From positions 682,001 through 746,000 of the forward strand of contig NZ_JABBWV010000002.1 of the NCBI RefSeq assembly GCF_012999535.1: DNA of 64,000 bases, read 5' to 3'. Both the position numbers and the translations under genes were made by a program. Each line of letters opens with the position of its first letter. Positions within the stretch are counted from its first letter, which is position 1. Origin of the DNA: Microbispora sp. H11081. GTDB lineage: Bacteria; Actinomycetota; Actinomycetes; Streptosporangiales; Streptosporangiaceae. The notes under the pieces are model-generated. The model made no database searches, was not told the origin of the DNA, and worked only from the letters and a program-made list of their open reading frames with translations. This document shows, one piece after another, positions 3,346-48,162 of this stretch.

Positions 3346-4517
3346 GATGTCTCCTCTTCGTAGGGCAGGCCCACGTAGTTCTCCGCCAGCGTCGTCGCGG
3401 CGGCCTCGGAGGACGTCACGTAGTCGAGGTAGGAGGTCTGCAGCCGCCGGGCGTAGGCGTCGTCGGACTCGAACGTGTGCAGCAGCGTCGTCATCCACCA
3501 CGAGAAGTGCTGGGCCCGCCACACCCGGGGCAGGCAGGCCCGCGAGTAGGCGTCCAGCGCCTCGGACGAGCCGTCGGCGTAGAAGCGCGCCAGCGCCTCG
3601 GTCAGCACCCGCACGTCGGCGACCGCCAGGTTGAGCCCCTTCGCGCCGGTCGGCGGCACGATGTGCGCCGCGTCCCCGGCGAGGAACAGCCTGCCGTGCT
3701 GCATGGGCTCGGCCACGAAGCCGCGCATCGGGGTGATGCCCTTCTCGACGATGTCGCCGGTCGCCAGGGCGAAGCCGGGCACGGTCTCCAGCCGGGCCCG
3801 CAGTTCGGCCCAGATCCGCTCGTCTGGCCACGCGGCGAGGTCCTCGTCGGGCGCGACCTGGAGATAGAAGCGGCTGATCTCCGGGGAGCGCATGCTGTGC
3901 AGCGCGAAGCCGCGCTCGGTCCGCGCGTAGATCAGCTCCTCCGACGACGGCTTCACCCTGGCCAGGACGCCCAGCCAGGCGAACGGGTAGTCGCGGCGGT
4001 ACTCGGTCAGCACGCCTTCCGGGATCGAGGCCCGGGACACGCCGTGGAAGCCGTCGCAGCCCGCGATCACGTCGCAGTCCAGCCGCTCGCCCCCGAAGGT
4101 GAGGTACGGCCGGTCGGTGCCGATGTCGTGCACGGCCACGTCGTCCACCTCGAAGCGGACGTCGCCCCCGGCCGCCAGCCGGGCGGCGATGAGGTCCTTG
4201 ACGACCTCCTGCTGGCCGTACACGGTGATCGCCCGGCCGGGCACCAGCCGCTCGAAGGCGATCCGGTGGCCCGCCCCGCCGTACCGCAGTTCGATGCCGT
4301 GGTGGGGCAGCCCCTCCCGGCTGAGCCGCTCGCCCACGCCCGCCTCGACGAGCGTGTCCACCGTGCCCTGTTCGAGCACCCCCGCCCGCACCCGCCGCTC
4401 GACGTACTCCCTGCTGCGGCGTTCGAGCACCACGGACTCGATGCCGCGCAGATGGAGGAGATGGGAGAGCAGCAGGCCGGCGGGTCCCGCTCCGATGATC
4501 CCGACCTTGGTTCGCAT
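3342..4517 (-). CDS. pobA: 4-hydroxybenzoate 3-monooxygenase
   Basis: FAD-dependent hydroxylase that turns 4-hydroxybenzoate into protocatechuate and so feeds the downstream pca genes. The 391-residue length matches the family. Visible are the Rossmann motif GIIGAGPAG (residues 6-14) with acidic E32 ending beta-2, the substrate/flavin segment RRVRAGVLE (41-49), the active-site stretch DYPFAWLGVLA followed by EELIYARTERGFAL, and the second FAD motif LFLAGDAAHIVPPTGAKGLN. It is first in the operon, starts with ATG, and is divergent from the IclR gene with 68 nt between them. Confidence 0.96.
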   Translation of the reverse strand: MRTKVGIIGAGPAGLLLSHLLHLRGIESVVLERRSREYVERRVRAGVLEQGTVDTLVEAGVGERLSREGLPHHGIELRYGGAGHRIAFERLVPGRAITVYGQQEVVKDLIAARLAAGGDVRFEVDDVAVHDIGTDRPYLTFGGERLDCDVIAGCDGFHGVSRASIPEGVLTEYRRDYPFAWLGVLARVKPSSEELIYARTERGFALHSMRSPEISRFYLQVAPDEDLAAWPDERIWAELRARLETVPGFALATGDIVEKGITPMRGFVAEPMQHGRLFLAGDAAHIVPPTGAKGLNLAVADVRVLTEALARFYADGSSEALDAYSRACLPRVWRAQHFSWWMTTLLHTFESDDAYARRLQTSYLDYVTSSEAAATTLAENYVGLPYEEETS

Positions 4518-4585
4518 GCCATAGAGGATCAGGAGGACGGGCCGCCCCGCGTAGGCTTGGCTTCCGCCCAGTGGAAGAGGGAATC
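4518..4585. promoter_or_regulatory. divergent pobA / IclR-gene control region
   Basis: Only 68 nt separate the two starts, so both promoters and any operator must lie here. One imperfectly placed inverted repeat is visible, CTTCC-N7-GGAAG at 4561-4577, overlapping the ribosome site of the IclR gene. IclR-family PobR/PcaR proteins are known to act from such divergent regions; assigning this repeat as the operator is inference. Confidence 0.4.
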
Positions 4586-5350
4586 ATGTCCGGCGGCGCG
4601 CGCGACCCGGGACGTACGGTCACCTCCCGGACCCTGGCCATCCTCGGCGCCTTCGACCTCCACCATCCCCGGCTCACGCTGACGGAGATCGCCGCGAGGA
4701 CCGGCCTGGCGCTGAGCACCGTCCACCGGCTCGTGGGCGAGCTGGAGGAGTGGCGCGCCGTGCACCGAGGCGCCGACGGGCGCTACCAGATCGGCCGCCG
4801 CGTGTGGGAGCTCGGCCAGCTCGCCCCCGACCCGCTGCAGGAGGTGGCCCACCCCTGGCTGCAGGAGCTGTTCGGCGGCACCGGCGAGAACGTCCACCTG
4901 GCGGTGCGCGACGGGGTCGAGGTGCTGTTCGTGGACAAGGTGTACGGCAAACGGGCGGTGCCGATCGTGTCGCGGACCGGCTCCCGGCTGCCCATGCATC
5001 CGACCGGGGTCGGCAAGGCGCTGCTCGCCTACGAGCCGGGCTGGTTCGTCACGGACTACCTGTCCCGGCCGCTGGAGCGGCCCACCCCGCACACCGTCAT
5101 CGAGCCGGGCCGGCTGGCCCGCGAGCTGGCCCAGGTGCGCGCTCAGGGGTACGCGTTGACGCACGAGGAGATGACGCTCGGCTCCTGCTCGGCGGCCGCG
5201 CCGGTGCTGGTCGGGGACCGGCCCGTCGCGGCCGTCGGCATCGTGGTGTCCTCGCGGCGGGTGCGCGAGCTGCCCCGCCTGGTCGACCCCCTGCGGGCCG
5301 TCGCGGCCGGCATCGCCCGCGACTACCGGGCCGCCGTCACGCGGGGCTGA
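4586..5350 (+). CDS. IclR-family transcriptional regulator of the pob/pca operon
   Basis: Likely aromatic-acid sensing regulator of the divergent pobA-pca operon. The 254-residue protein has an N-terminal winged helix-turn-helix (about residues 14-70; LTLTEIAARTGLALSTVHRL is the recognition region) and a C-terminal effector domain with the family segments GENVHLAVRDG, RTGSRLPMHPTGVGKALLA and a late APVLVGDRPVAAVGI. ATG at 4586 is preferred over GTG at 4571 because GGAAGAGGG lies just upstream. PobR- or PcaR-like function is inferred from position; activator or repressor mode cannot be told. Confidence 0.88.
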   Translation: MSGGARDPGRTVTSRTLAILGAFDLHHPRLTLTEIAARTGLALSTVHRLVGELEEWRAVHRGADGRYQIGRRVWELGQLAPDPLQEVAHPWLQELFGGTGENVHLAVRDGVEVLFVDKVYGKRAVPIVSRTGSRLPMHPTGVGKALLAYEPGWFVTDYLSRPLERPTPHTVIEPGRLARELAQVRAQGYALTHEEMTLGSCSAAAPVLVGDRPVAAVGIVVSSRRVRELPRLVDPLRAVAAGIARDYRAAVTRG

Positions 5351-7945: not shown

Positions 7946-8740
7946 ATGCCCAAGCTGGCCGTGTGGAAGTTCGCCTCGTGCGACGGGTGCCAGCTCACGT
8001 TCCTGGACTGCGAGGACGAACTGCTGGCCGTCGCGGCCCGGGTCGAGATCGCCTGCTTCCTGGAGGCGTCCAGCGCCCCGGGCCCTGGCCCGTACGACCT
8101 GTCGCTGGTGGAGGGGTCGATCACCACCCCGGAGGACCTGGAGCGGATCAGGCACGTGCGCCGGGTGTCGGAGCGGCTGGTCACGATCGGCGCGTGCGCC
8201 ACCGCGGGCGGCATCCAGGCGCTGCGCGACTTCGCCGACGTCAAGGAGTTCGCCGCGGTCGTCTACGCCCGGCCCGACTACATCGCCACCCTGGACCGCT
8301 CGACCCCGATCGCCGCACATGTGCCGGTCGACTTCGAGCTGCGCGGCTGCCCGCCCGACAGGCGCCAGTTGCTCGAAGTGATCTCGGCGTTCCTCGCCGG
8401 GCGGCGGCCGGAGGTGCCCGCGCACAGCGTGTGCGTGGAGTGCAAGGCCAGGGGCAACGCCTGCGTGATGGTCGCGCACGGCACCCCCTGCCTCGGGCCG
8501 GTCACCCAGGCGGGCTGCGGGGCGCTGTGCCCGGCGTTCAACCGGGGCTGCTACGGCTGCTTCGGGCCGATGGAGAGCCCCAACCACGCGTCGCTGAACC
8601 ACTGGATGCGCGGCCTCGGGATGAGCACCCCCGAGCTGGTGCGGATCTACCGGACCTACCACGCCACGACGGAGCCGTTCCGGCGGGCGGCCGAGGAGGC
8701 GCAGAGGTCCGGCGAGGAGTTCGGCGAGGAGGAGGAGTGA
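7946..8740 (+). CDS. hydD: group 3b-type [NiFe]-hydrogenase small subunit
   Basis: Iron-sulfur small subunit that wires the NiFe site to the diaphorase module. The 264-residue protein lacks a Tat signal, consistent with a cytoplasmic group 3 enzyme. Proximal cluster ligands start at [15 protein letters not shown] (residues about 9-23); the Cys in GACATAGG and in LRGCPPD are further ligands; medial/distal cluster cysteines lie in [30 protein letters not shown] and [12 protein letters not shown] at 7946 follows GGAGAGGAG. Acidic tail EEFGEEEE. The hydA start overlaps its stop. Confidence 0.93.
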
Positions 8741-38412: not shown

Positions 38413-39417
38413 TCAGCCGCCGCGGAGCGCGCGCAGGGACTCGCGCAGCGAGCCGAGGGTGGCGAAGACCGCCGTCGGCTCGTAGCCGCAGTGCGCCATG
38501 CAGTTGGCGCAGCGCGCGTCCCGCCCCCGGCCGTAGGAGTCCCAGTCGGTCTCCTCGACCAGCTCCCGGTACGTCTTCGCGTACCCGTCGGCCATCAGGT
38601 AGCAGGGCCGCTGCCAGCCGAACAGGGAGTAGGAGGGGATCGCCCAGGCCGTGCAGGGGAAGTCGGTCCTCCCCTCCAGGAAGTCGAGGAACAGCGGCGA
38701 GTGGTTGAACCGCCAGCGCCTGCGGTTGCCGCCGGCGAACGCGGCGCGGAACAGCTCCCGCGTCTGCCGCACGCCCAGGAAGCAGTCCTGGTCGGGCGCC
38801 TTCTCGTAGGCGTACCCCGGCGAGATCGTCATCTGGTCGACGCGCAGTTCGTCGTTGAGGAAGTCGAGCACCTCCACGACCGTGCGCGGGCTGTCCCCGG
38901 CGAAGAACGTGGTGTTGGTGGTGACGCGGAAGCCGCGCCGCAGGCACTCGCGCACCGCCGCGACCGCCTCGTCGAACACGCCCGCCTTGCACACGGACGC
39001 GTCGTGCCGCTCGCGCAGGCCGTCGATGTGGACCGCCCAGGCGAAGTAGGGCGACGGCGCGAACCGGTCGATCTTGCGCGGGATCAGCAGCGCGTTGGTG
39101 CACAGGAAGACGTACTTCCTGCGCGCCACCAGCTCCTCGACCATCTCCCCGATCTGGGGGTGCATGAGCGGCTCCCCGCCCGCGATCGACACCATCGGCG
39201 CGCCGCACTCCTCTACGGCGGCAACCGCCTGCTCGACCGGCATGCGCTGTTTCAGCACTCCGGCCGGGTGCTGGATCTTCCCGCAGCCCGCGCACTTCAG
39301 GTTGCACGCGAACAGCGGTTCGAGTTCGAGCAGCAGCGGGAACCGTTCCCGCCCGCGCAGCCGCTGGCGCAGGATGTAGGCGCCGACGCGCAGGCTCTGG
39401 CGCAGGGGCATAGGCAT
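38413..39417 (-). CDS. hpnH: adenosyl-hopene transferase (radical SAM)
   Basis: Radical-SAM enzyme that attaches the 5'-deoxyadenosyl group to diploptene, the first side-chain step of extended hopanoids. The 334-residue protein has the cluster motif CNLKCAGCGK (Cys at about 38, 42 and 45), SIAGGEPLMHP and a C-terminal domain with RPCYLMADGYAKTYREL and RCANCMAHCGYEPTAV cysteines characteristic of HpnH. ATG at 39417 overlaps the stop of the upstream fusion gene (TGATG). Last gene of the hopanoid operon. Confidence 0.95.
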   Translation of the reverse strand: MPMPLRQSLRVGAYILRQRLRGRERFPLLLELEPLFACNLKCAGCGKIQHPAGVLKQRMPVEQAVAAVEECGAPMVSIAGGEPLMHPQIGEMVEELVARRKYVFLCTNALLIPRKIDRFAPSPYFAWAVHIDGLRERHDASVCKAGVFDEAVAAVRECLRRGFRVTTNTTFFAGDSPRTVVEVLDFLNDELRVDQMTISPGYAYEKAPDQDCFLGVRQTRELFRAAFAGGNRRRWRFNHSPLFLDFLEGRTDFPCTAWAIPSYSLFGWQRPCYLMADGYAKTYRELVEETDWDSYGRGRDARCANCMAHCGYEPTAVFATLGSLRESLRALRGG

Positions 39418-40931
39418 CAGGGCCGCACCTCCTTCGGCAATGTGAACTCGACGTTCTCCTCGGTCACCCGCCGCTCCTCCACCTCCAGCGGGCCGAGCCC
39501 GCCGAGGGCCGCCACGACGTCGTCGACCACCGAGCCGGGAGTCGACGCCCCGGCGGTAACCCCGACCGTCCGCGCCTCGCGCAGCCAGTCGAGCGCGACG
39601 TCGCCTGGGCCGTCGACCAGGCGGGCGAGCGGCGCCCCGTCGCGCCCGGAGCGCGCGGCGACCTCGGTGAGGCGCAGGGCGTTGGAGGAGTTCGCCGACC
39701 CGACCACCAGGACCAGGTCGGCCTCGTCCGCGACGGCGCGCACCGCCCGCTGCCGGTTGGTCGTCGCGTAGCAGATGTCGTCGCCGCGCGGTCCCTCGGC
39801 GTCCGGGAAGCGCCGCCGGATCGCCGCCGAGACCCGCCCCGCCTCGTCGGCCGCGAGCGTGGTCTGGGTGAGGTAGGCGACCCCGCGCCCCGGCCGCAGG
39901 CCCTCGATCTCGGCCTCGTCCTCGACCAGCACGCCCGCGCCCGGCACCTCCCCGAGCACGCCCTCGACCTCCTCGTGCCCGGCGTGGCCGATCAGCACCA
40001 CGAGGTCGCCCCGCGCGGCGAACCTGCGGGCCTCGGCGTGGACCTTCGCGACCAGCGGGCAGGTCGCGTCGACGACGCGCAGTCCGCGCCGCGCCGCCTC
40101 CTCCCGCACGGACGGCGCGACCCCGTGCGCGGAGAACACGGTCGCCGCGCCCTCCGGCACCTCGGCCAGTTCGTCGACGAACACCGCGCCGCGCCGCTCC
40201 AGATCCCGTACGACGTGGATGTTGTGCACGATCTGCTTGCGCACGTAAACGGGCGGGCCGAACCGGTCCAGGGCGAGTTCCACGATCTCGATGGCCCGCT
40301 CGACCCCGGCGCAGAACGAGCGGGGCGAGGCCAGCAGGACCCGGCGCGGGCCCACGGCCGCCGCCCACCGCGCCAGCACAGGGCCGATCCGGGTGAGCGT
40401 CCGGCGCGCGGGGACCGCGCCGCACAGGGTGGCGGGGTTCAGCAGGGGGGCGCCCGGGGCGTCCACGATGACCCGCACGGCCGCGAACGGCCGCCCGCCC
40501 GCGGCTTCCGCGAGAGGCGCGCTCTCCATGTCGACGGCGCACGCGCCCTCGCGGGCCAGCGCGAGCCTGGCGCGGCCCGTCACTATCCCCGGCGAGGTCA
40601 CGAGCGGGCCCAGGCGGGCGGGCAGCCCGGCCCTGAGGAGCTCACCGGCGAGCAGCGGCGCCGACGGGCACGGCCAGACCCGGTCGCCGGAGCGGACCTC
40701 GGTGGCGACGAGGACGTCCCCGGGGCGCAGCCCGTCGTGGAGCGCCCCGCCGAAGCCGGTCACGGCGAGGGCGGCGGCGGGCGGGAGCAGGGCCGCCGCG
40801 CGCGCCGCCCGGTCCGGGCCCATCCCGATTCTGACGACCCGGATGCCCGGCCGGCCGGGCGGGGGCCGCAGGCCACGGGCGACGGCCCGGGCCTCGAGCC
40901 CCAGCGCGGTGCACACGATCAGACCGGTCAT
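39417..40931 (-). CDS. HpnG-IspH fusion: hopanoid nucleosidase/phosphorylase plus HMBPP reductase
   Basis: One open frame of 504 residues joins two enzymes. Residues 1-190 are a nucleoside-phosphorylase fold like HpnG (ALAVTGFGGALHDGLRPGDV, catalytic-type VDMES at 133-137, VRVIVDAPG), which removes adenine from adenosylhopane. From about 194 on there is a complete IspH: cluster cysteines 207 (PRSFCAGV), 291 (VDATCPLV) and 386 (DDICYATTNRQ), His236, His269 and His318, Glu320 in GHEEVEG and GSANSSNALRL. IspH makes IPP and DMAPP from HMBPP. ATG at 40931 overlaps the shc stop (ATGA). Confidence 0.93.
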   Translation of the reverse strand: MTGLIVCTALGLEARAVARGLRPPPGRPGIRVVRIGMGPDRAARAAALLPPAAALAVTGFGGALHDGLRPGDVLVATEVRSGDRVWPCPSAPLLAGELLRAGLPARLGPLVTSPGIVTGRARLALAREGACAVDMESAPLAEAAGGRPFAAVRVIVDAPGAPLLNPATLCGAVPARRTLTRIGPVLARWAAAVGPRRVLLASPRSFCAGVERAIEIVELALDRFGPPVYVRKQIVHNIHVVRDLERRGAVFVDELAEVPEGAATVFSAHGVAPSVREEAARRGLRVVDATCPLVAKVHAEARRFAARGDLVVLIGHAGHEEVEGVLGEVPGAGVLVEDEAEIEGLRPGRGVAYLTQTTLAADEAGRVSAAIRRRFPDAEGPRGDDICYATTNRQRAVRAVADEADLVLVVGSANSSNALRLTEVAARSGRDGAPLARLVDGPGDVALDWLREARTVGVTAGASTPGSVVDDVVAALGGLGPLEVEERRVTEENVEFTLPKEVRP

Positions 40932-42808
40932 GGCGTCACCTCCGGGGCACGCAGGTAGCGGCCGAGCGCGCTGAGGGGGAAGACGAGGCGGTAGAGGTGG
41001 TAGTTGATGAAGAAGTCGCCGGGGAAGCCCGTCCCGGTGTAGTGTGGCTCGTCCCATGTGCCGTCGGAGCGCTGGCTGCCGGCCAGCCAGGCCGCGCCCC
41101 GGTCCACGGCCCGGCCACGCTCCCCGGCGGCGAGCAGGCCGATCATGGCCCAGGCCGTCTGCGAGGCGGTCGGCTCGCCCCGCCCGATCCAGGCGGGGTC
41201 GCGGTAGGAGCGCATGTCCTCGCCCCAGCCGCCGCAGGGCTGCTGGTGCGCCTCCAGCCAGGCCACGGCCCGCCGTACGCGGGGGTCGCCTGGCGGCACC
41301 CCGGCGGCCACGAGGGCCGGCAGCACCGCCCCGGTGCCGTACACGTGGTTGGCCCCCCACCTGCCGAACCACGAGCCGTCGCGCTCCTGCGCCCGCAGCA
41401 GCCACCCCACGGCCCGCCGTACGACGGGGGAGCGGGCCAGGCCCTCGGCCGCCAGCGCCTCGACCACGTGCGCGGTAACGTCGGCCGTCGGCGGGTCGAT
41501 GACCGCGCCGAAGTCGCAGAACGGCAGGCGCAGGCACAGCGTGCGGGTGTTGTCGGCGTCGAAGGCGGCGAACCCCCCGTCGCGGCAGGCCATCCCGGCC
41601 ATCCAGCGCAGCCCCCGCTCCAGCGCGGGACGAGCGTCGGGGCGGCCCCACCGGCCCAGCGCGATGACCACCTCGGCCGTGTCGTCGACGTCGGGGTAGC
41701 GGTCGTTGTCGAACTCGAACGCCCAGCCGCCCGGCGCGAGCCGGGGCCGCCGCACCGCCCAGTCGCCCGGCCCGCGCACCTCCTCGCGCAGCAGCCACTC
41801 GCCCGCCGCGGCCAGCGCGGGATGCTCGCGCGGCAGGCCGGCGTCGAGGAGGGCGGTAATCGCCAGCGCGGTGTCCCAGACCGGCGACTGGCACGCCTCC
41901 AGCCGGCGCGTGCCGTTCTCCCTGATGGTGAACCTGTCCAGCCCCGCCAGGCCGGCCCGGATGACGGGATGGTCCAGGCCGTACCCGCTCAGGCGGAGGG
42001 CGATCAGCGAGTAGACCCAGGGAGGCTGGATGCCGCCCCAGGAGCCGTCGGCCTCCTGGCGGGCCACAATCCACTCGGCGGCCCGCCGCAGCGCTGCGTC
42101 GCGGAGCCCCGCGAGCGGCCGCCGCTCGTACCGGTGCAGGGCGCGGTCGAGCGCCGCGAACGCCGCGTCCCACCCGGTGCGCGCGGCCCGCCGCGGCGGG
42201 CGCCCGGTCCGCAGTTCCGGCAGGGCGAACGGCAGCGGGCGGACCGGCCGGTGCGCGGTCACGATCGTGAGCGGCACGATGGTCTGCCGCGCCCAGCACG
42301 CCCAGTCGTACACGTTCAGCGGGCACCAAGGCGGCAGGAACATGATCTCCGGTGGGATTACCGGCAGGTCCTCCCACCGCCACTGGCCGAACAGGGCGAG
42401 CCAGATCCGGGTGAAGACCCGGGCGGACTCGACGCCGCCCGCCTCGCGTGCGCACGCCGCCGCGGCACGCATGTGCGGGGCGGAGGGCGGGTCGCCCGCG
42501 AGCCGCAGCGCCGTGTACGCCTCCACGGTGGTGGACAGGTCGGCGGGACCGCCGTGGAAGGTGGCCCAGCCGCCGTCGGCTCCCTGCCGCGACCTGATCC
42601 ACCGGGCGGTCTCGGCCGTCTCCCGCGCGGTCCGCACGCCGAGGAACTCGCGCAGCAGCAGGTCCTCCGCATCCATCGTCACGTTGGTCCGCAGCTCGCC
42701 CTTCCACCATCCCCCGGGCGACTGCAGGCCGAGCAGGTGGTCGCGGGCCGCGTTCAGGGCCGTCTCGGCGCGGGCGGCCCCGGTGGCGCCGGCGGCGACG
42801 GCGGTCAC
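40928..42808 (-). CDS. shc: squalene-hopene cyclase
   Basis: Membrane-associated cyclase forming hopene/hopanol from squalene, 626 residues. The protonating motif DVDDTA is at 373-378; QW-type repeats include QGADGGWATF, QEADGSWGG, RDGGFAAFD, QERDGSWFGRWG and QPCGGWGED. WEDLPVIPPEIMFLPPWCPLNVY is the usual inner segment. GTG at 42808 overlaps the hpnE stop. It is the central gene of the hopanoid operon (also called hpnF). Confidence 0.96.
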   Translation of the reverse strand: MTAVAAGATGAARAETALNAARDHLLGLQSPGGWWKGELRTNVTMDAEDLLLREFLGVRTARETAETARWIRSRQGADGGWATFHGGPADLSTTVEAYTALRLAGDPPSAPHMRAAAACAREAGGVESARVFTRIWLALFGQWRWEDLPVIPPEIMFLPPWCPLNVYDWACWARQTIVPLTIVTAHRPVRPLPFALPELRTGRPPRRAARTGWDAAFAALDRALHRYERRPLAGLRDAALRRAAEWIVARQEADGSWGGIQPPWVYSLIALRLSGYGLDHPVIRAGLAGLDRFTIRENGTRRLEACQSPVWDTALAITALLDAGLPREHPALAAAGEWLLREEVRGPGDWAVRRPRLAPGGWAFEFDNDRYPDVDDTAEVVIALGRWGRPDARPALERGLRWMAGMACRDGGFAAFDADNTRTLCLRLPFCDFGAVIDPPTADVTAHVVEALAAEGLARSPVVRRAVGWLLRAQERDGSWFGRWGANHVYGTGAVLPALVAAGVPPGDPRVRRAVAWLEAHQQPCGGWGEDMRSYRDPAWIGRGEPTASQTAWAMIGLLAAGERGRAVDRGAAWLAGSQRSDGTWDEPHYTGTGFPGDFFINYHLYRLVFPLSALGRYLRAPEVTP

Positions 42809-44187
42809 GGCGTCCGCTCCCGCCCGAGATGCCGCCGCACGAGGCGGGCCGCCCGGAGTCCACTGCGCACGGCGCCCTCCATCGTGTCGGGCCAGCCCGT
42901 GTCGGTCCACGCGCCGGCGAGGAAGAGACCGGGCCACCGGGTGGCCGCGCCGGGGCGCAGTCTCCCGCTGCCCGGGACCTGCCGGAAGGTCGCCCGCCGC
43001 TCCCTGGTGACGAACAGGTCCACGACCCGCGCCTCCCGCGCGGCAGGCAGCAGCCGCGCGAGCTCGTGCGGGAACACCTCCCGCATCACGGCCGTGGGCA
43101 CGTCGATCCACTGCCGGGCCGCCGACACCGAGACCGTCAGGTACTGGCCCCGGGCGAGCCCGCCCGCCTCGGTCCTGTCGAAGACCCACTGCACGGGTGA
43201 GCCGACGACGGCGGCGAACGGCAGCCGGGTGACCGGCCGGTCGTAGACCACGTGCACGTTGACGATCGGGCTCGCGCCGAGCCCCGCCCAGGCGTCCCGG
43301 TCCGGCGCCGCCTCCGCCGGCACGAGCCGCGCGGCCTGGCCGTGCGGGGCCGCGACGACCACGGCGGACGCGTCGACCCGCCGGCCGCCGACGAGGATCG
43401 ACGGCCCGGGCAGCACGCCGTCCACCTTCGCCCGCAGCCGCACCTCGCCGCCCAGCCGGGTGATGGCCGCGAGCGCGGCGCCGCCGTGCAGGTCGCCGAG
43501 CGGCACGGACGGCACGCCGATGTCGGCGGCGTCGGCGCGGCCGAGCAGGGCCGTCCTGAAGACCATCGCCGCCGGCCCGAGCGCCGCCTCGTCGGACGGC
43601 ACGTTCAGCGCCGCCACCGCGAACAGGTCCCACAGGGCCCGCCGTACGGCCTCCCGCTGGCCGTTGGCGGCCAGCCAGCCGCCGAGCGCGGACCGGTCGA
43701 GGGCGGGCGCCGCCGGGTCGAGCCCGCGCAGGGCGAGCGCGCCGCGCACCGCGCGCAGCCGGTCGGCGGGCGACAGCAGGCGGTAGCCCGCGAGCGCCGG
43801 GAGCAGGTGGAACGGCCCGGGCAGCGCGGACCTGCGCAGCCGTGCCCGCCCGCCCCCGGGGGTGAGCACGGGCACGTCGAAGCGCTCCTGCAGCCGCACC
43901 CGCCCGGTCCCGCCGAGCCGGTCGAGCAGGCCGAGGTAGGCCGTGCAGCAGCGCAGGAAAACGTGCTGCCCGTTGTCGGCGACCAGCCCGCCCCGCGAGA
44001 AGGAGGACGTGGCCCCGCCGAGGCGGGGCCTCGCCTCGTAGAGGGTCACCGCGCGGCCGGCCTCCGCGAGCGCGAGGGCCGCCGTGATGCCGGCGAGGCC
44101 GCCGCCGACCACCGCCACGGGCGGGACCCGGCCGCCCGCCGCCGTGTCGATCGCTCCGCCCGCCGCTCCGCTCATCGGGCCGCTCAT
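42805..44187 (-). CDS. hpnE: hydroxysqualene dehydroxylase
   Basis: FAD-dependent amine-oxidase-fold enzyme that reduces hydroxysqualene to squalene in the HpnCDE route. The 460-residue protein has the dinucleotide motif VVGGGLAGITAALALAEAG, the substrate-side NGQHVFLRCCTAYLGLLDRL typical of HpnE, LNVPSDEAALGPAA and the C-terminal FAD motif LFLAGAWTDTGWPDTMEGAV. ATG at 44187 overlaps the hpnD stop (ATGA); a second ATG lies 12 nt on. Confidence 0.95.
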   Translation of the reverse strand: MSGPMSGAAGGAIDTAAGGRVPPVAVVGGGLAGITAALALAEAGRAVTLYEARPRLGGATSSFSRGGLVADNGQHVFLRCCTAYLGLLDRLGGTGRVRLQERFDVPVLTPGGGRARLRRSALPGPFHLLPALAGYRLLSPADRLRAVRGALALRGLDPAAPALDRSALGGWLAANGQREAVRRALWDLFAVAALNVPSDEAALGPAAMVFRTALLGRADAADIGVPSVPLGDLHGGAALAAITRLGGEVRLRAKVDGVLPGPSILVGGRRVDASAVVVAAPHGQAARLVPAEAAPDRDAWAGLGASPIVNVHVVYDRPVTRLPFAAVVGSPVQWVFDRTEAGGLARGQYLTVSVSAARQWIDVPTAVMREVFPHELARLLPAAREARVVDLFVTRERRATFRQVPGSGRLRPGAATRWPGLFLAGAWTDTGWPDTMEGAVRSGLRAARLVRRHLGRERTP

Positions 44188-45218
44188 CGGGCCGCTCCCG
44201 CGATCGCCCGCGCCGCGACCATCGCCTTGGCCCAGGGTGGCAGCGACAGGCGCCCGGCCAGCGCCCTGGCCGGGTCGGTGGCGATGCGGTCGAGCAGGCG
44301 CCGGTAGATGCCGGCCATCGCCGCGGTGCAGGCCGCGCTGCGCCGGTCGAGCAGCGGGATCAGGCGGGTCCCCTCGGCGTACCAGTCGAGCGCCCGCCCC
44401 GCCTCGTACCGCACGAGCCTGGCGAGCCGCTCCGGCGGGTCGGTGAACGCCCCCGACGCGTCGAGGCCGAGCGTGCAGCCGAACTCGCGCAGGTCGTCGG
44501 CCGGCAGGTACACCCGCGCGGCGCACCGGTCCTCCCGCAGGTCCCTGAGCACGTTGGTGAGCTGGAGCGCCACCCCCAGGGAGTCGGCGAGCCGCGCCGC
44601 GCGCCGCAGCGCCCCGGCGTCGCGGCCCGCGCCGTCCGCCAGGCCGAAGACGCCGAGCGACAGCCGTCCGATCGACCCGGCGACGTCGCGGCAGTAGCCG
44701 ACGAGGTCCTCGTAGGACTGGTAGCGCGCGCCCGCGACGTCGGCGGCGCAGCCGTCGATCAGTTCCTCGAACGCCTCCAGCGGCACGGGGAAGCGCTCGG
44801 CGGTGTCGTGCAGCGCCACCAGCACGGGATCGGCGGGATCCGGCCGCGGCGAGCGGAGCCCCGCCCGTGCCTCCTCCAGCGCCGACAGTCGCGCGTCGAC
44901 GGGCCCGGCCGCGTCCCCGATGTCGTCGACCCGGCGGGCGAAGGCGTAGAGCGCGCTGAGCGCGCGGCGCTCGGGCGGGGCGAGCAGGCGGATCCCGTAG
45001 GCGAAGTTGCGTGCCTGGTCGCGCACGACACGCTCGCAGTGGCGGTAGGCGGCCGGCAGCGGCACGGGCGCGGGCGTGCGGATCGGCCCGGCGGCGACGG
45101 GGCGCAGCGCGGGGCCCGGCCGCCCGCCCGCGCCGGGAACGGCGTCGGGAACCGGACCGGGAACGGCGTCGGGAACGGGATCGGGAACGGGATCAGGGAT
45201 CGCGCCGGGAAGCGTCAC
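44184..45218 (-). CDS. hpnD: presqualene diphosphate synthase
   Basis: Condenses two farnesyl diphosphates to presqualene diphosphate. The 344-residue protein has the first Asp-rich motif FARRVDDIGD and the second QLTNVLRDLREDR, with YCRDVAGSIGRLSLGVFG between. The first about 45 residues are a Pro/Ala-rich repeat (PDPVPDPVPDAVPGPVPDAV) absent from typical HpnD and encoded by a 12-nt-like repeat; a downstream start would remove it. GTG at 45218 overlaps hpnC by 26 nt. Confidence 0.92.
   Translation of the reverse strand: MTLPGAIPDPVPDPVPDAVPGPVPDAVPGAGGRPGPALRPVAAGPIRTPAPVPLPAAYRHCERVVRDQARNFAYGIRLLAPPERRALSALYAFARRVDDIGDAAGPVDARLSALEEARAGLRSPRPDPADPVLVALHDTAERFPVPLEAFEELIDGCAADVAGARYQSYEDLVGYCRDVAGSIGRLSLGVFGLADGAGRDAGALRRAARLADSLGVALQLTNVLRDLREDRCAARVYLPADDLREFGCTLGLDASGAFTDPPERLARLVRYEAGRALDWYAEGTRLIPLLDRRSAACTAAMAGIYRRLLDRIATDPARALAGRLSLPPWAKAMVAARAIAGAAR
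45137..45200. repeat. degenerate 12-nt repeats at the start of hpnD
   Basis: On the plus strand units of the form GGGAAC-CGGACC, GGGAACGGCGTC and GGGAACGGGATC follow each other in phase. They encode the Pro-Val-Pro-Asp type N-terminal repeat of HpnD and partly overlap the hpnC 3' end. Confidence 0.8.
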
Positions 45219-46044
45219 CGTTCACCTCCCTCAGCACGCGTGCCCACTCGCCGAGCACCGCGCGGCGGCGTGCGCGGACCGTCCGGCCGAGCACGTCGTG
45301 CCGCCCGCGTTCCAGCGCCGCGAGCACGGCCCGCCCGCCCGCGACGTACCCGGCCACCGCGGTGCGCGCGAACCCGCTCAGCGTCTCCAGCAGCGGCATC
45401 CCCTCGTCCAGCAGCGTGGCGGCGCGGCGCGCCTGTAGCGCGACGGCCCTGCGCAGCCGCGGGGACGCGTGCGGGGCGGCCAGGTCGGCCTCGCGGCAGC
45501 CGAACCTGCGCAGGTCCTCGCCGGGGAGGTAGACCCGGCCGCGGGCGTGGTCCTCGCCCACGTCCTGGCAGTGCTCGATCACCTGCAGCGCCGAGCAGAT
45601 GCGGTCGGACAGCCGCGCCCGCTCCGGCGTGGCCGCGCCGAAGACGTGCAGGACGATCCGGCCGACCGGGTTGGCGGACAGTTCGCAGTAGGCCAGCAGT
45701 TGCGCGAACGTGTCGTAGCGCCGCACCACCTGGTCGCGCCGGTTGGCCTCCACGAGGTGCAGGAAGTGCGCCCGGGGCACGCCCCGCCCGGCGACCAGCG
45801 GCGTCAGCGCCCGCACGGCGGGCAGCCGGGGGCTCACCCCGGCGTAGAGGCGGCCGAGATCGGCCTCCACCGCGTCGAGCAGCGCGGGCCGCTCGGCGGG
45901 GTCGCCCTCGTCGCCGACGTCGTCCACGTATCGGGCGAAGCAGTACACCGCCATCAGGTCGCGGCGGTACGCGCGCGGCAGCAGACGGGCGGCCACCGGG
46001 AAGTTCTCCCGGCGCGCGGCATCGCGAACGTCCGCTGCGGACAT
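45193..46044 (-). CDS. hpnC: hydroxysqualene synthase
   Basis: Converts presqualene diphosphate to hydroxysqualene; first gene of the hopanoid operon. The 283-residue protein opens with ENFPVAARLLPRAYRRDLMAVYCFAR, has FARYVDDVGDEGD as first Asp motif and VIEHCQDVGEDHARGRVYLP as second, both typical of HpnC. ATG at 46044 has GGCGGAGA ten nt upstream. The 172 nt before it are comparatively A/T-rich and should hold the operon promoter. Confidence 0.94.
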   Translation of the reverse strand: MSAADVRDAARRENFPVAARLLPRAYRRDLMAVYCFARYVDDVGDEGDPAERPALLDAVEADLGRLYAGVSPRLPAVRALTPLVAGRGVPRAHFLHLVEANRRDQVVRRYDTFAQLLAYCELSANPVGRIVLHVFGAATPERARLSDRICSALQVIEHCQDVGEDHARGRVYLPGEDLRRFGCREADLAAPHASPRLRRAVALQARRAATLLDEGMPLLETLSGFARTAVAGYVAGGRAVLAALERGRHDVLGRTVRARRRAVLGEWARVLREVNGDASRRDP

Positions 46045-46216
46045 GCCTGAAGAATCTCCGCCGCAATTCACCACAAAACCCGACAAGGAGCGCCGGCGTT
46101 TTTACGCGCGTAACGCCCGGGGAAAAGCGGCGCACGCCCCAGCGCCGCCAATGGAAGAAGCGGTAAAAACGCGGCGGGAAACGGCCACGCCCCCAGAAGG
46201 GCTCATTCCCCTTTTC
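46045..46216. promoter_or_regulatory. intergenic region ahead of the hopanoid operon
   Basis: This 172-nt stretch lies between the deacetylase stop and hpnC and has several A/T-rich runs (GTTTTTAC near 46098, GGTAAAAACG near 46164, CCTTTTCTTACG near 46211) unusual for this DNA. GCGTTTTTAC and GGTAAAAACGC form a near inverted pair about 60 nt apart. No clear -35/-10 pair could be assigned. Confidence 0.35.
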
Positions 46217-46987
46217 TTACGCTTCCTGCCGCGGGTAAAAGCTCGTCGAGGCATGGAGCCGGTGGGCCGCCCCGCCGCCGGGTACACCCACGCCGTGGGC
46301 GCCCAGCGTGCCGACCCGCAGCCCGGCGGCGCGGCAGCGGCCCACCACGCCGGCGAGCGCGCCGAGCGCCGAGCGCCAGGAACCCGGGGCGGAGGTGTGG
46401 TCGCAGTCGTGCAGCAGCAGCGTCGCCCCGCCGCGCAGGCCGGGCTCCAGGGTGCGCAGCACCGATCCGGCCGTGGCCCATGCCGTCCAGTCGACGCCCC
46501 AGGCCGTCCACAGCACCGGCCGCAGGCCGTGCCGGCGGGCGGCGAACAGCGCCTCGGCGCTCAGCACGCCGTACGGCGGGCGGTACCACGAGGGCCGCGC
46601 ACCGGTGACGGCGGTGACGAGGCGCGCGGCCCTGCCGATCTCCGCGGTGACCCTGCCGGGCCGGGCGACCAGGGCGTTGCCGTGCCGCCAGCCGTGCACG
46701 GCCACCTCGTGGCCGGCCCGCGCGATGCTCCGCCCGACGTCGGGATGGCGATCGAGCAGTTCGCCGAGGAGGAAGAAGGTCGCCCGGCACCCGAGCCGGT
46801 CCAGTTCGTCGAGGAACAGCGGGGTCGACCGAGGATCCGGCCCGTCGTCGAAGGTCAGCGCCACGTGCCCGGGATCGCCCTCGCCCGCGAGGGACGGCAG
46901 CAGGCGGCGCACCGAAGGCAGCCAGGTCGCCCCCGGTCCCGCGTGGAGCAGGGCCAGGCCGGCGGCGGCGAACGCGTGAGGTCGCAT
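46217..46987 (-). CDS. polysaccharide deacetylase (NodB-fold)
   Basis: Carbohydrate esterase family 4 protein of 256 residues. Motif 1 is ALTFDDGPDPRST with the catalytic Asp, motif 2 is HEVAVHGWRHGN with the metal His pair, motif 3 RPPYGV, and a late LLLHDCDHTS. The N-terminus is only weakly hydrophobic, so secretion is uncertain. It shares a 47-nt divergent region with a galactolipid-synthase-like gene and lies directly upstream of the hopanoid operon, which suggests a glycolipid or envelope role (inference). Confidence 0.88.
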   Translation of the reverse strand: MRPHAFAAAGLALLHAGPGATWLPSVRRLLPSLAGEGDPGHVALTFDDGPDPRSTPLFLDELDRLGCRATFFLLGELLDRHPDVGRSIARAGHEVAVHGWRHGNALVARPGRVTAEIGRAARLVTAVTGARPSWYRPPYGVLSAEALFAARRHGLRPVLWTAWGVDWTAWATAGSVLRTLEPGLRGGATLLLHDCDHTSAPGSWRSALGALAGVVGRCRAAGLRVGTLGAHGVGVPGGGAAHRLHASTSFYPRQEA

Positions 46988-47034
46988 CGCATTCCAGTGT
47001 CCGCCACGCCGCCCGCCGGCCGGGAAGGAGGGCC

Positions 47035-48162
47035 ATGAGGGACAGGGCATTGATCGTCAGCGCCTCGATGGGCTCGGGCCACGACGCCGTCGCGGAGGAA
47101 CTGGCGCGCCGCCTTGACTCCGCCGGGGTCGCCACCGAGATCGTGGACGTGCTCGCCCTGCTGCCGCTGCGGCTGGGCGCGCTGCTGCGCTGGTGGTACC
47201 GCGTGGTGATGCTGCGGGCGCCATGGCTGTACGCGCTGGTCTACCGCGTCTTCTTCGTCTCACGCCGGGCCCCTTCCACCTCGCCGCTGACGGTGGCCGC
47301 CGCCGCCGGGCTGGCCAGGGCGGTGCGGCGTGTCCGGCCCTCGCTGGTCGTGCCGGTCTTCCATGTGGCAGCCCAGGCCGCGGGGCACCTGCGGGCGCGC
47401 GGGCGGCTCGCGGCGCCGAGCGTGGTCGTGCTCACCGACTTCGCCGTGCACCGCCTGTGGCTGCACCCCGGCAACGACCGCTACCTGTGCCCGGACGCGG
47501 CCACGGCCCTCGCGGTGCCCGCCGCCCTCGGGCGCCCGGCCTTCCGCTGCGCCCCGATCGTCGGCCCCGGGTTCGCGGCGTCCCGGGGCCGGGCCGGTGC
47601 GGCGGACGTACGGGCCCGGCTCCGCCTGCCGGACGACGGGCCGATCGTCCTCGTCTGCGCCGGATCCTGGGGGGTCGGCCGGGTGATGGAGACCGCGCGG
47701 ATCCTCGCCCGCTCGGGCCGTTACTCGCCCGTCGTGCTGTGCGGGCACAACGAGCGGCTTCGCCGCCGGCTCGGGCGGCTGCTCGGGCGCGCGGGAGCGG
47801 GCGCCGCGCTCGGCTGGCGCGACGACCTGGCGGACCTGCTCGCCTCCGCCTACGCGCTGGTCGACAACGCGGGCGGGCTGACCTGCAGGGAGGCGTTCGC
47901 CGCGGGAGTGCCCGTGGTGACATACCGGCCCATCGCGGGCCACGGCGGGGACGGCGTGCGCGCGATGGCCCGCGCCGGGGTGAGCGTCCACGCGCGCTGC
48001 CGCGCGGACCTGCTGCGGGCGCTGGACCGGCTCCAGCCAGGCCTGCCCGGGCAAGCCGCGCTCATCGCGCGGGCGGCGGCCCTGTTCGCCGCGGCGCCGG
48101 CGGAGTCCCTTCTCCTCCCGGACCGGCCCGCCGCGTCCCGAGCATGTGAGCCTGCTTCCTGA
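47035..48162 (+). CDS. MGDG synthase/MurG-like glycosyltransferase (GT28 type)
   Basis: A 375-residue GT-B glycosyltransferase. The N-terminal VSASMGSGHDAVAEELARRL matches monogalactosyldiacylglycerol synthases, and the donor-binding C-terminal half has LVCAGSWGVGRVMETAR, CGHNERLRRRL and the DNAGGLTCREAFAAGVPVVTYRPIAGHG loop. It probably transfers a sugar from UDP-sugar to a lipid acceptor. ATG at 47035 follows GGAAGGAGGGCC. The final about 33 residues overlap the convergent DMT gene. Confidence 0.85.
   Translation: MRDRALIVSASMGSGHDAVAEELARRLDSAGVATEIVDVLALLPLRLGALLRWWYRVVMLRAPWLYALVYRVFFVSRRAPSTSPLTVAAAAGLARAVRRVRPSLVVPVFHVAAQAAGHLRARGRLAAPSVVVLTDFAVHRLWLHPGNDRYLCPDAATALAVPAALGRPAFRCAPIVGPGFAASRGRAGAADVRARLRLPDDGPIVLVCAGSWGVGRVMETARILARSGRYSPVVLCGHNERLRRRLGRLLGRAGAGAALGWRDDLADLLASAYALVDNAGGLTCREAFAAGVPVVTYRPIAGHGGDGVRAMARAGVSVHARCRADLLRALDRLQPGLPGQAALIARAAALFAAAPAESLLLPDRPAASRACEPAS

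Follow-up and report, generated by a model that had tools for sequence, protein, structure and literature searches.

HpnG removes adenine from adenosylhopane, and the enzyme responsible for ribosylhopane reduction is described as not yet established in the passages of PMC12583986 considered here. In the SD1 Acidobacteria, the shc-hpnH cluster treated in the relevant sections of PMC5462960 carries an ispH that is linked to hopanoid genes, as in the locus reported in this study. There, however, ispH is a separate gene and hpnG clusters with hpnA. Fusions of IspH are likewise known with ribosomal protein S1 (NF000907), i.e., with another partner. A full-text literature search, which mostly covered sources other than subscription journals, returned no description of an HpnG-IspH fusion in the text it reached.

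Here, we observe an hpnG::ispH fusion gene within a hopanoid operon of Microbispora sp. H11081. The window, i.e., the whole stretch of DNA that was analysed, comprises 64,000 nucleotides. The operon lies on its minus strand, with hpnC, hpnD-like, hpnE and shc upstream of the fusion and hpnH downstream:

45193..46086, minus strand: hpnC (squalene synthase); TIGR03464 288.4 bits, cut-off 250.45
44184..45218, minus strand: hpnD-like presqualene diphosphate synthase; TIGR03465 263.5 bits, just below the cut-off of 278.6
42805..44187, minus strand: hpnE, start approximate; TIGR03467 413.1 bits, cut-off 283.05
40928..42820, minus strand: squalene-hopene cyclase (shc), start approximate; TIGR01507 745.8 bits, cut-off 431.1
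39417..40931, minus strand: hpnG::ispH fusion gene, 504 amino acids; from the reading frame, Pfam, NCBIfam and orthologues
40356..40931, minus strand: HpnG-type (MTAN/PNP fold) domain, residues 1-192, with E13, D134, E136 and D157
40320..40367, minus strand: junction from W189 to R204; from residue conservation and the structure model
39420..40352, minus strand: IspH domain, residues 194-504, with C207, C291 and C387
38413..39417, minus strand: hpnH; TIGR03470 533.9 bits, over the cut-off, at G000:C12:720464-721417

The cyclase stop overlaps the ATG of the fusion (ATGA), and the fusion stop overlaps the ATG of hpnH (TGATG). Directly upstream of hpnC lies a polysaccharide deacetylase gene (window 46217-47050, minus strand), which has the same place in the Microbispora, Microtetraspora, Nonomuraea cavernae and Actinomadura alba loci. 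The gene of a glycosyltransferase similar to MGDG/diglucosyl diacylglycerol synthase (window 47035-48162, plus strand) diverges from the operon.

The fusion frame extends from the ATG at 40931-40929 to the TGA at 39419-39417 over 504 codons without an internal stop. The open stretch around it spans 1148 codons; in GC-rich DNA, openness alone is weak evidence, and the case therefore rests on comparison. Pfam assigns PNP_UDP_1 to residues 30-158 (E 1.4e-12) and LYTB to residues 198-476 (E 3.5e-84). Among the NCBIfam models, TIGR00216 scores the IspH half with 279 bits, above its cut-off of 187.85, while the IspH-ribosomal protein S1 model NF000907 yields 202.2 of 624 for the fusion. The HpnG half reaches 82 bits with TIGR03468, which is below the curated cut-off of 187.1, and for this reason we call it HpnG-type and not a member of the TIGR03468 equivalog. 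An earlier sequence-only reading had proposed a single frame that joins a complete HpnG to a complete IspH inside a hopanoid operon. Frame, domains and orthologues confirm the HpnG-type domain and the full IspH.

The HpnG-type half exhibits the MTAN/PNP fold with a catalytic Glu, Glu and Asp, the roles of which are presumably those known from MTAN, and it is found in the context of a hopanoid operon with hpnH. Its VDMES motif is located at 133-137, just where it had been read. The IspH half has three cluster cysteines together with the substrate-site His, Glu, Thr, Ser and Asn residues, to which we assign the functions of their counterparts in E. coli IspH. Two of the cysteines, 207 and 291, had been placed correctly, and the third is residue 387 instead of 386. 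Conservation is strong among 69 distinct fused proteins: E13, D134 and E136 occur in all of them and D157 in 68, and the IspH half keeps C207, H236, H269, C291, H319, E321, T357, C387, S412, S415 and S463 in 69/69 and N414 in 68/69. The active-site His and Glu that had been claimed are thus among the conserved residues. Against 15 relatives, dN/dS ranges from 0.21 to 0.57 in the HpnG half and from 0.19 to 0.35 in the IspH half, values which are simple Nei-Gojobori estimates on GC-rich DNA.

Full-length, stop-free alignments, beginning at residue 19 at the latest and extending to at least residue 502, were obtained in 53 of the 297 genomes of the family draw, the own genome included, with E 4e-144 or better. 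The window's genus contributes 12 of its 15 genomes in this draw. Named relatives among the best 80 loci include Microbispora (84-90% identical), Microtetraspora, Actinomadura, Nonomuraea and Parafrankia, and further Speluncibacter, Prauserella and Thermoleophilia MAGs. The full fusion is found in 27 of these best 80 loci, and all 27 adjoin shc and/or hpnH. Where the contig reaches, their gene order is hpnC-hpnD-hpnE-shc-fusion-hpnH, except for L059, in which hpnE is present and shc is absent directly before the fusion, and L057, in which hpnH was not seen downstream of the fusion. A fusion with shc and hpnH also occurs in a MAG labelled Candidatus Melainabacteria (L061), where the cyclase match holds one TGA; this points either to mis-binning of a contig from an actinobacterium or to a transfer.

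In a class-wide actinomycete draw, 88 of 393 genomes hold an hpnH over the cut-off, and all 88 were classed, 81 in the class survey and seven from the family-draw comparison. One group, f16/g83, which we take to be Streptomyces, has a stand-alone hpnG without an adjacent ispH in 40/40 genomes of the class survey. Outside this group, 42 of the 48 hpnH genomes are fused, a count that includes G384 and G531, whose HpnG part is cut by the region edge. Another five have a separate hpnG (G005, G309, G327, G364 and G450), and in G496 hpnG was not seen in the two fetched regions. The loci L062, L194 and L197, truncated at the edge of a contig or region, were either counted as fused or omitted from the trees. 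Eight family codes comprise the fusion (f1, f12, f14, f15, f19, f24, f30 and f33). The fusion is common in actinobacteria and not peculiar to the Microbispora genome. The earlier expectation that the fusion departs from the usual separate hpnG is not supported, as the fusion is the commonest arrangement of the class survey outside the Streptomyces-like genus. Nine loci of the Frankia family f15 (L151, L152, L153, L155, L157, L158, L159, L160 and L163) show an extra hpnH besides the fusion-linked one; no other hopanoid gene was found in the ~11 kb fetched around it.

The gene probably encodes a bifunctional HpnG::IspH enzyme of the hopanoid operon, in which the IspH half adds C5-precursor capacity and the HpnG half performs the side-chain step. 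Its C-terminal half would be a hopanoid-dedicated IspH paralogue that converts HMBPP to IPP and DMAPP by means of a [4Fe-4S] cluster, and thereby would add precursor capacity whenever the operon is expressed. Removal of adenine from adenosylhopane, the product of the neighbouring HpnH, would fall to the N-terminal half. From the sequence comparisons we infer both catalytic activities and a single polypeptide in vivo. As to the presumed selective reason for the fusion, the gain would most likely be joint expression at 1:1 and not channelling, because the two reactions are not consecutive; channelling is unlikely since they are widely separated in the pathway and each half can disappear on its own.

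A second ispH, which the sequence-only reading had advised looking for, is found as a stand-alone gene in the own genome (C33:382233-383066; genome of 7.38 Mb, 99.99% complete). Two or more ispH genes are present in 48 of the 50 fusion-bearing genomes, and canonical IspH could meet the entire precursor need. Only the fused ispH was seen in G116, which is 92% complete, and in G200. This would have suggested that the fused ispH suffices, but in G200 it reflects an assembly gap: the own canonical ispH corresponds to query 4234-5067, and the G200 matches end at query 5292, which is base 8558 of 8651 of contig C66, and at query 3470, which is base 71 of C119.

The oxygen barrier of Frankia is held to consist of hopanoids. 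In nitrogen-fixing Frankia alni fed with propionate versus fumarate, FRAAL1433, listed as '4-hydroxy-3-methylbut-2-enyl diphosphate reductase', is 5.12-fold up, and FRAAL1432, a squalene-hopene cyclase, is 4.23-fold up (PMC10252897, Table 2b). The genome G328 shows at ~1.54 Mb a cyclase followed by a two-domain protein, PNP_UDP_1 plus LYTB. Its nifH starts at base 7,420,646, the number that this part of PMC10252897 gives for FRAAL6813, and a carbonic anhydrase covers the place given for FRAAL1222. Owing to this agreement of coordinates and to the two-domain protein after the cyclase, FRAAL1433 can very probably be equated with the fusion, its annotation naming the IspH half only. With this identity, an orthologue of the fusion has very probably been detected as a protein in the published proteome, as far as its Table 2b goes. 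It had been suggested that the fusion may couple precursor supply to hopanoid demand. The overlapping genes and the joint increase of FRAAL1433 and FRAAL1432 in that table agree with this idea solely in the sense of shared expression.

A physical or allosteric coupling would go further: a rigid junction would let the HpnG half, sensing adenosylhopane or adenine, set the IspH activity, or one assembly would hold both. We regard this as unlikely. Both halves belong to the same operon, W189 is invariant (69/69 fused proteins), and in the structure model of the fusion (pLDDT 92.0, pTM 0.89), which recovers both folds, the final HpnG helix (167-192) continues into the first IspH strand (196) without a flexible linker, i.e., a single helix leads into IspH. 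However, related operons contain HpnG without the fused-type IspH, and members of the IspH clade have either a decayed HpnG or no HpnG at all. Operons that keep hpnG without the fused-type ispH and IspH proteins with decayed HpnG speak against an obligatory coupling. The separate HpnG proteins of G005 (f1), G364 (f13) and G309 and G327 (both f14) fall among the fused ones in an HpnG tree of 40 rows, which is midpoint-rooted only; those of the Streptomyces-like genus and of L147 (G450) were not placed in it. Within the window's genus, G178 and G216 (L232 and L233) carry shc, then a stand-alone HpnG terminating just past the junction point, and hpnH, with no IspH in between, and they offer a natural within-genus comparison for the fusion. 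A further genome of this genus, G221 (92% complete, no fusion), had no cyclase over the cut-off. The fused IspH is dispensable, since the hopanoid operon runs without it in 40/40 genomes of f16/g83, in another five of the survey, and in G178 and G216.

The fusion may also be an accident, in which two neighbouring, coupled genes were joined by loss of the intervening stop and the result was kept neutrally, with nothing gained beyond co-transcription. The tightly overlapping genes and the losses of either half would fit, but the fusion was kept across eight family codes and in the Thermoleophilia MAGs. A neutral, reversible junction might also show some intermediates, and hpnG and ispH side by side yet unfused were found in none of the examined stretches of the 88 hpnH genomes. 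We consider an accident improbable, and the bifunctional enzyme is the preferred reading.

Further light on the history comes from terpene clusters of the encapsulin type. Fifteen IspH proteins carry an N-terminal stub of 89-132 residues, given the start codons chosen, in Nocardiopsis, Streptomonospora, Amycolatopsis, Actinokineospora, Crossiella and other genera (L063, L064, L065, L066, L067, L068, L071, L074, L075, L077, L078, L080, L082, L100 and L105). A profile of 16 stubs, including L096b, matches the HpnG profile with a probability of 98.3% (E 1.2e-13). At E <= 1e-3, the stub HMM recovers every one of the 69 HpnG domains except that of L103, i.e., 68, and none of 690 shuffled decoys; conversely, the HpnG HMM scores the 16 stubs with 16.7-33.8 bits. 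No VDMES-like motif was found in the stubs. We infer from these matches that the stub is a relic of the hopanoid fusion, a shortened HpnG without the active-site motif. In the model of one stub protein (L063), pLDDT is 91-97 at residues 21-60 and 62-95 at 61-110; as the stub is predicted to fold, it need not be mere debris. An encapsulin gene accompanies 10 of the 15 stub loci and a polyprenyl synthetase 14, while shc or hpnH was found in none; the stub-less relatives have encapsulin in 21/27 loci. These clusters resemble the Family 2B encapsulin terpene clusters described in PMC8346489. According to that paper, genes for precursors are frequent in prenyl-transferase systems; neither IspH nor LytB is mentioned in it. 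A second, very diverged IspH-like protein with an HpnG-like stub is seen in Streptosporangium minutum (L096:1219-2106, minus strand, and upstream). It appears to be without the usual IspH motifs and is perhaps a pseudo-enzyme.

In the second of two IspH trees, fused, stub-bearing and encapsulin-type proteins are located on one side and canonical ones on the other, with weak support (67/66); the canonical IspH stay together on their side in 62% of 200 bootstrap trees, from a bootstrap that had not settled. This second tree comprises 68 of 145 distinct IspH (29 fused, 15 with stub, 11 without, 13 canonical), with L096b left out for its long branch and L217 relabelled canonical. It requires 8 label changes, and the first tree (99 rows) 9. 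The fused MAG sequences L059 and L103 fall outside the other 53 sequences, a basal position that depends on one branch (97/83); by this placement, fusion probably preceded the origin of the encapsulin-type clade. On trees and stub, the most economical history would be a single ancient fusion event in Actinomycetota, after which some hopanoid operons lost the IspH half. The fused gene would also have been passed to the encapsulin terpene clusters, where its HpnG decayed.

The folded stub also enters a more specific proposal, a feedback device. The HpnG half, meeting adenosylhopane and freeing adenine, would control the IspH step via the rigid shared helix of the model, so that side-chain flux sets precursor supply, and in the encapsulin clusters HpnG would remain as a folded stub with a structural role only. 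We hold this to be quite unlikely. In PDB 9ql0, according to its title, E. coli IspH was crystallised with adenosine hemisulfate present, which is of interest since HpnG is thought to free adenine.

Still less can be said for a new substrate of the IspH half, e.g., in ribosylhopane reduction. It is attached to a domain thought to make ribosylhopane, and another ispH is found in 48/50 fusion-bearing genomes. Yet every substrate-site residue checked is kept, and the 40/40 operons of the Streptomyces-like genus are without a fused IspH, which makes a new substrate very improbable. A hidden stop, a frameshift or an internal start that yields two proteins is hardly credible: although the 1148-codon frame says little and 51/69 genes have an in-frame ATG or GTG within the last 25 codons before IspH (none in 18/69), the 69 distinct fused proteins come from many assemblies, and those codons almost never have a Shine-Dalgarno-like match. 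Such a match (>=5, i.e., at least five) accompanies a start near the junction in 1/69 genes versus 76/1018 control windows within the same genes, in a scan that used the IspH motif where it was located (52/69) and otherwise the domain start. Two separately translated products are therefore unlikely, and the fusion is genuine, free of the sequencing error near residue 190 that had been named as its possible undoing.

From a biological point of view, a second IspH, joined to a hopanoid enzyme, is retained in many actinobacteria, nitrogen-fixing Frankia among them. Annotation can hide the fusion, as is probably the case for FRAAL1433 in Frankia alni, listed as IspH only. As a bifunctional enzyme, the fusion would make it possible to test how the supply of precursors is bound to a single terpenoid product, might serve as a component in terpenoid engineering, and would connect the evolution of hopanoid operons with that of encapsulin terpene clusters.

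Compared with known systems, the fused IspH is a full domain with all checked residues, as in stand-alone IspH/LytB (E. coli 3f7t and the own C33 gene). It differs from these in its N-terminal HpnG and in its place apart from canonical actinobacterial IspH, a separation with weak support. The stand-alone HpnG of the shc-hpnH operons in f16/g83 has the same place in the operon, a similar length and the same motifs; it has no IspH attached, and the fused form is the one that falls below the TIGR03468 cut-off. The IspH of encapsulin clusters in Nocardiopsis, Amycolatopsis, Lentzea and others (Family 2B of PMC8346489) groups with the fused IspH, and 15 of these proteins have the HpnG-homologous stub. 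Unlike the HpnG half of the fusion, the stub is without VDMES, and neither shc nor hpnH was found in these loci.
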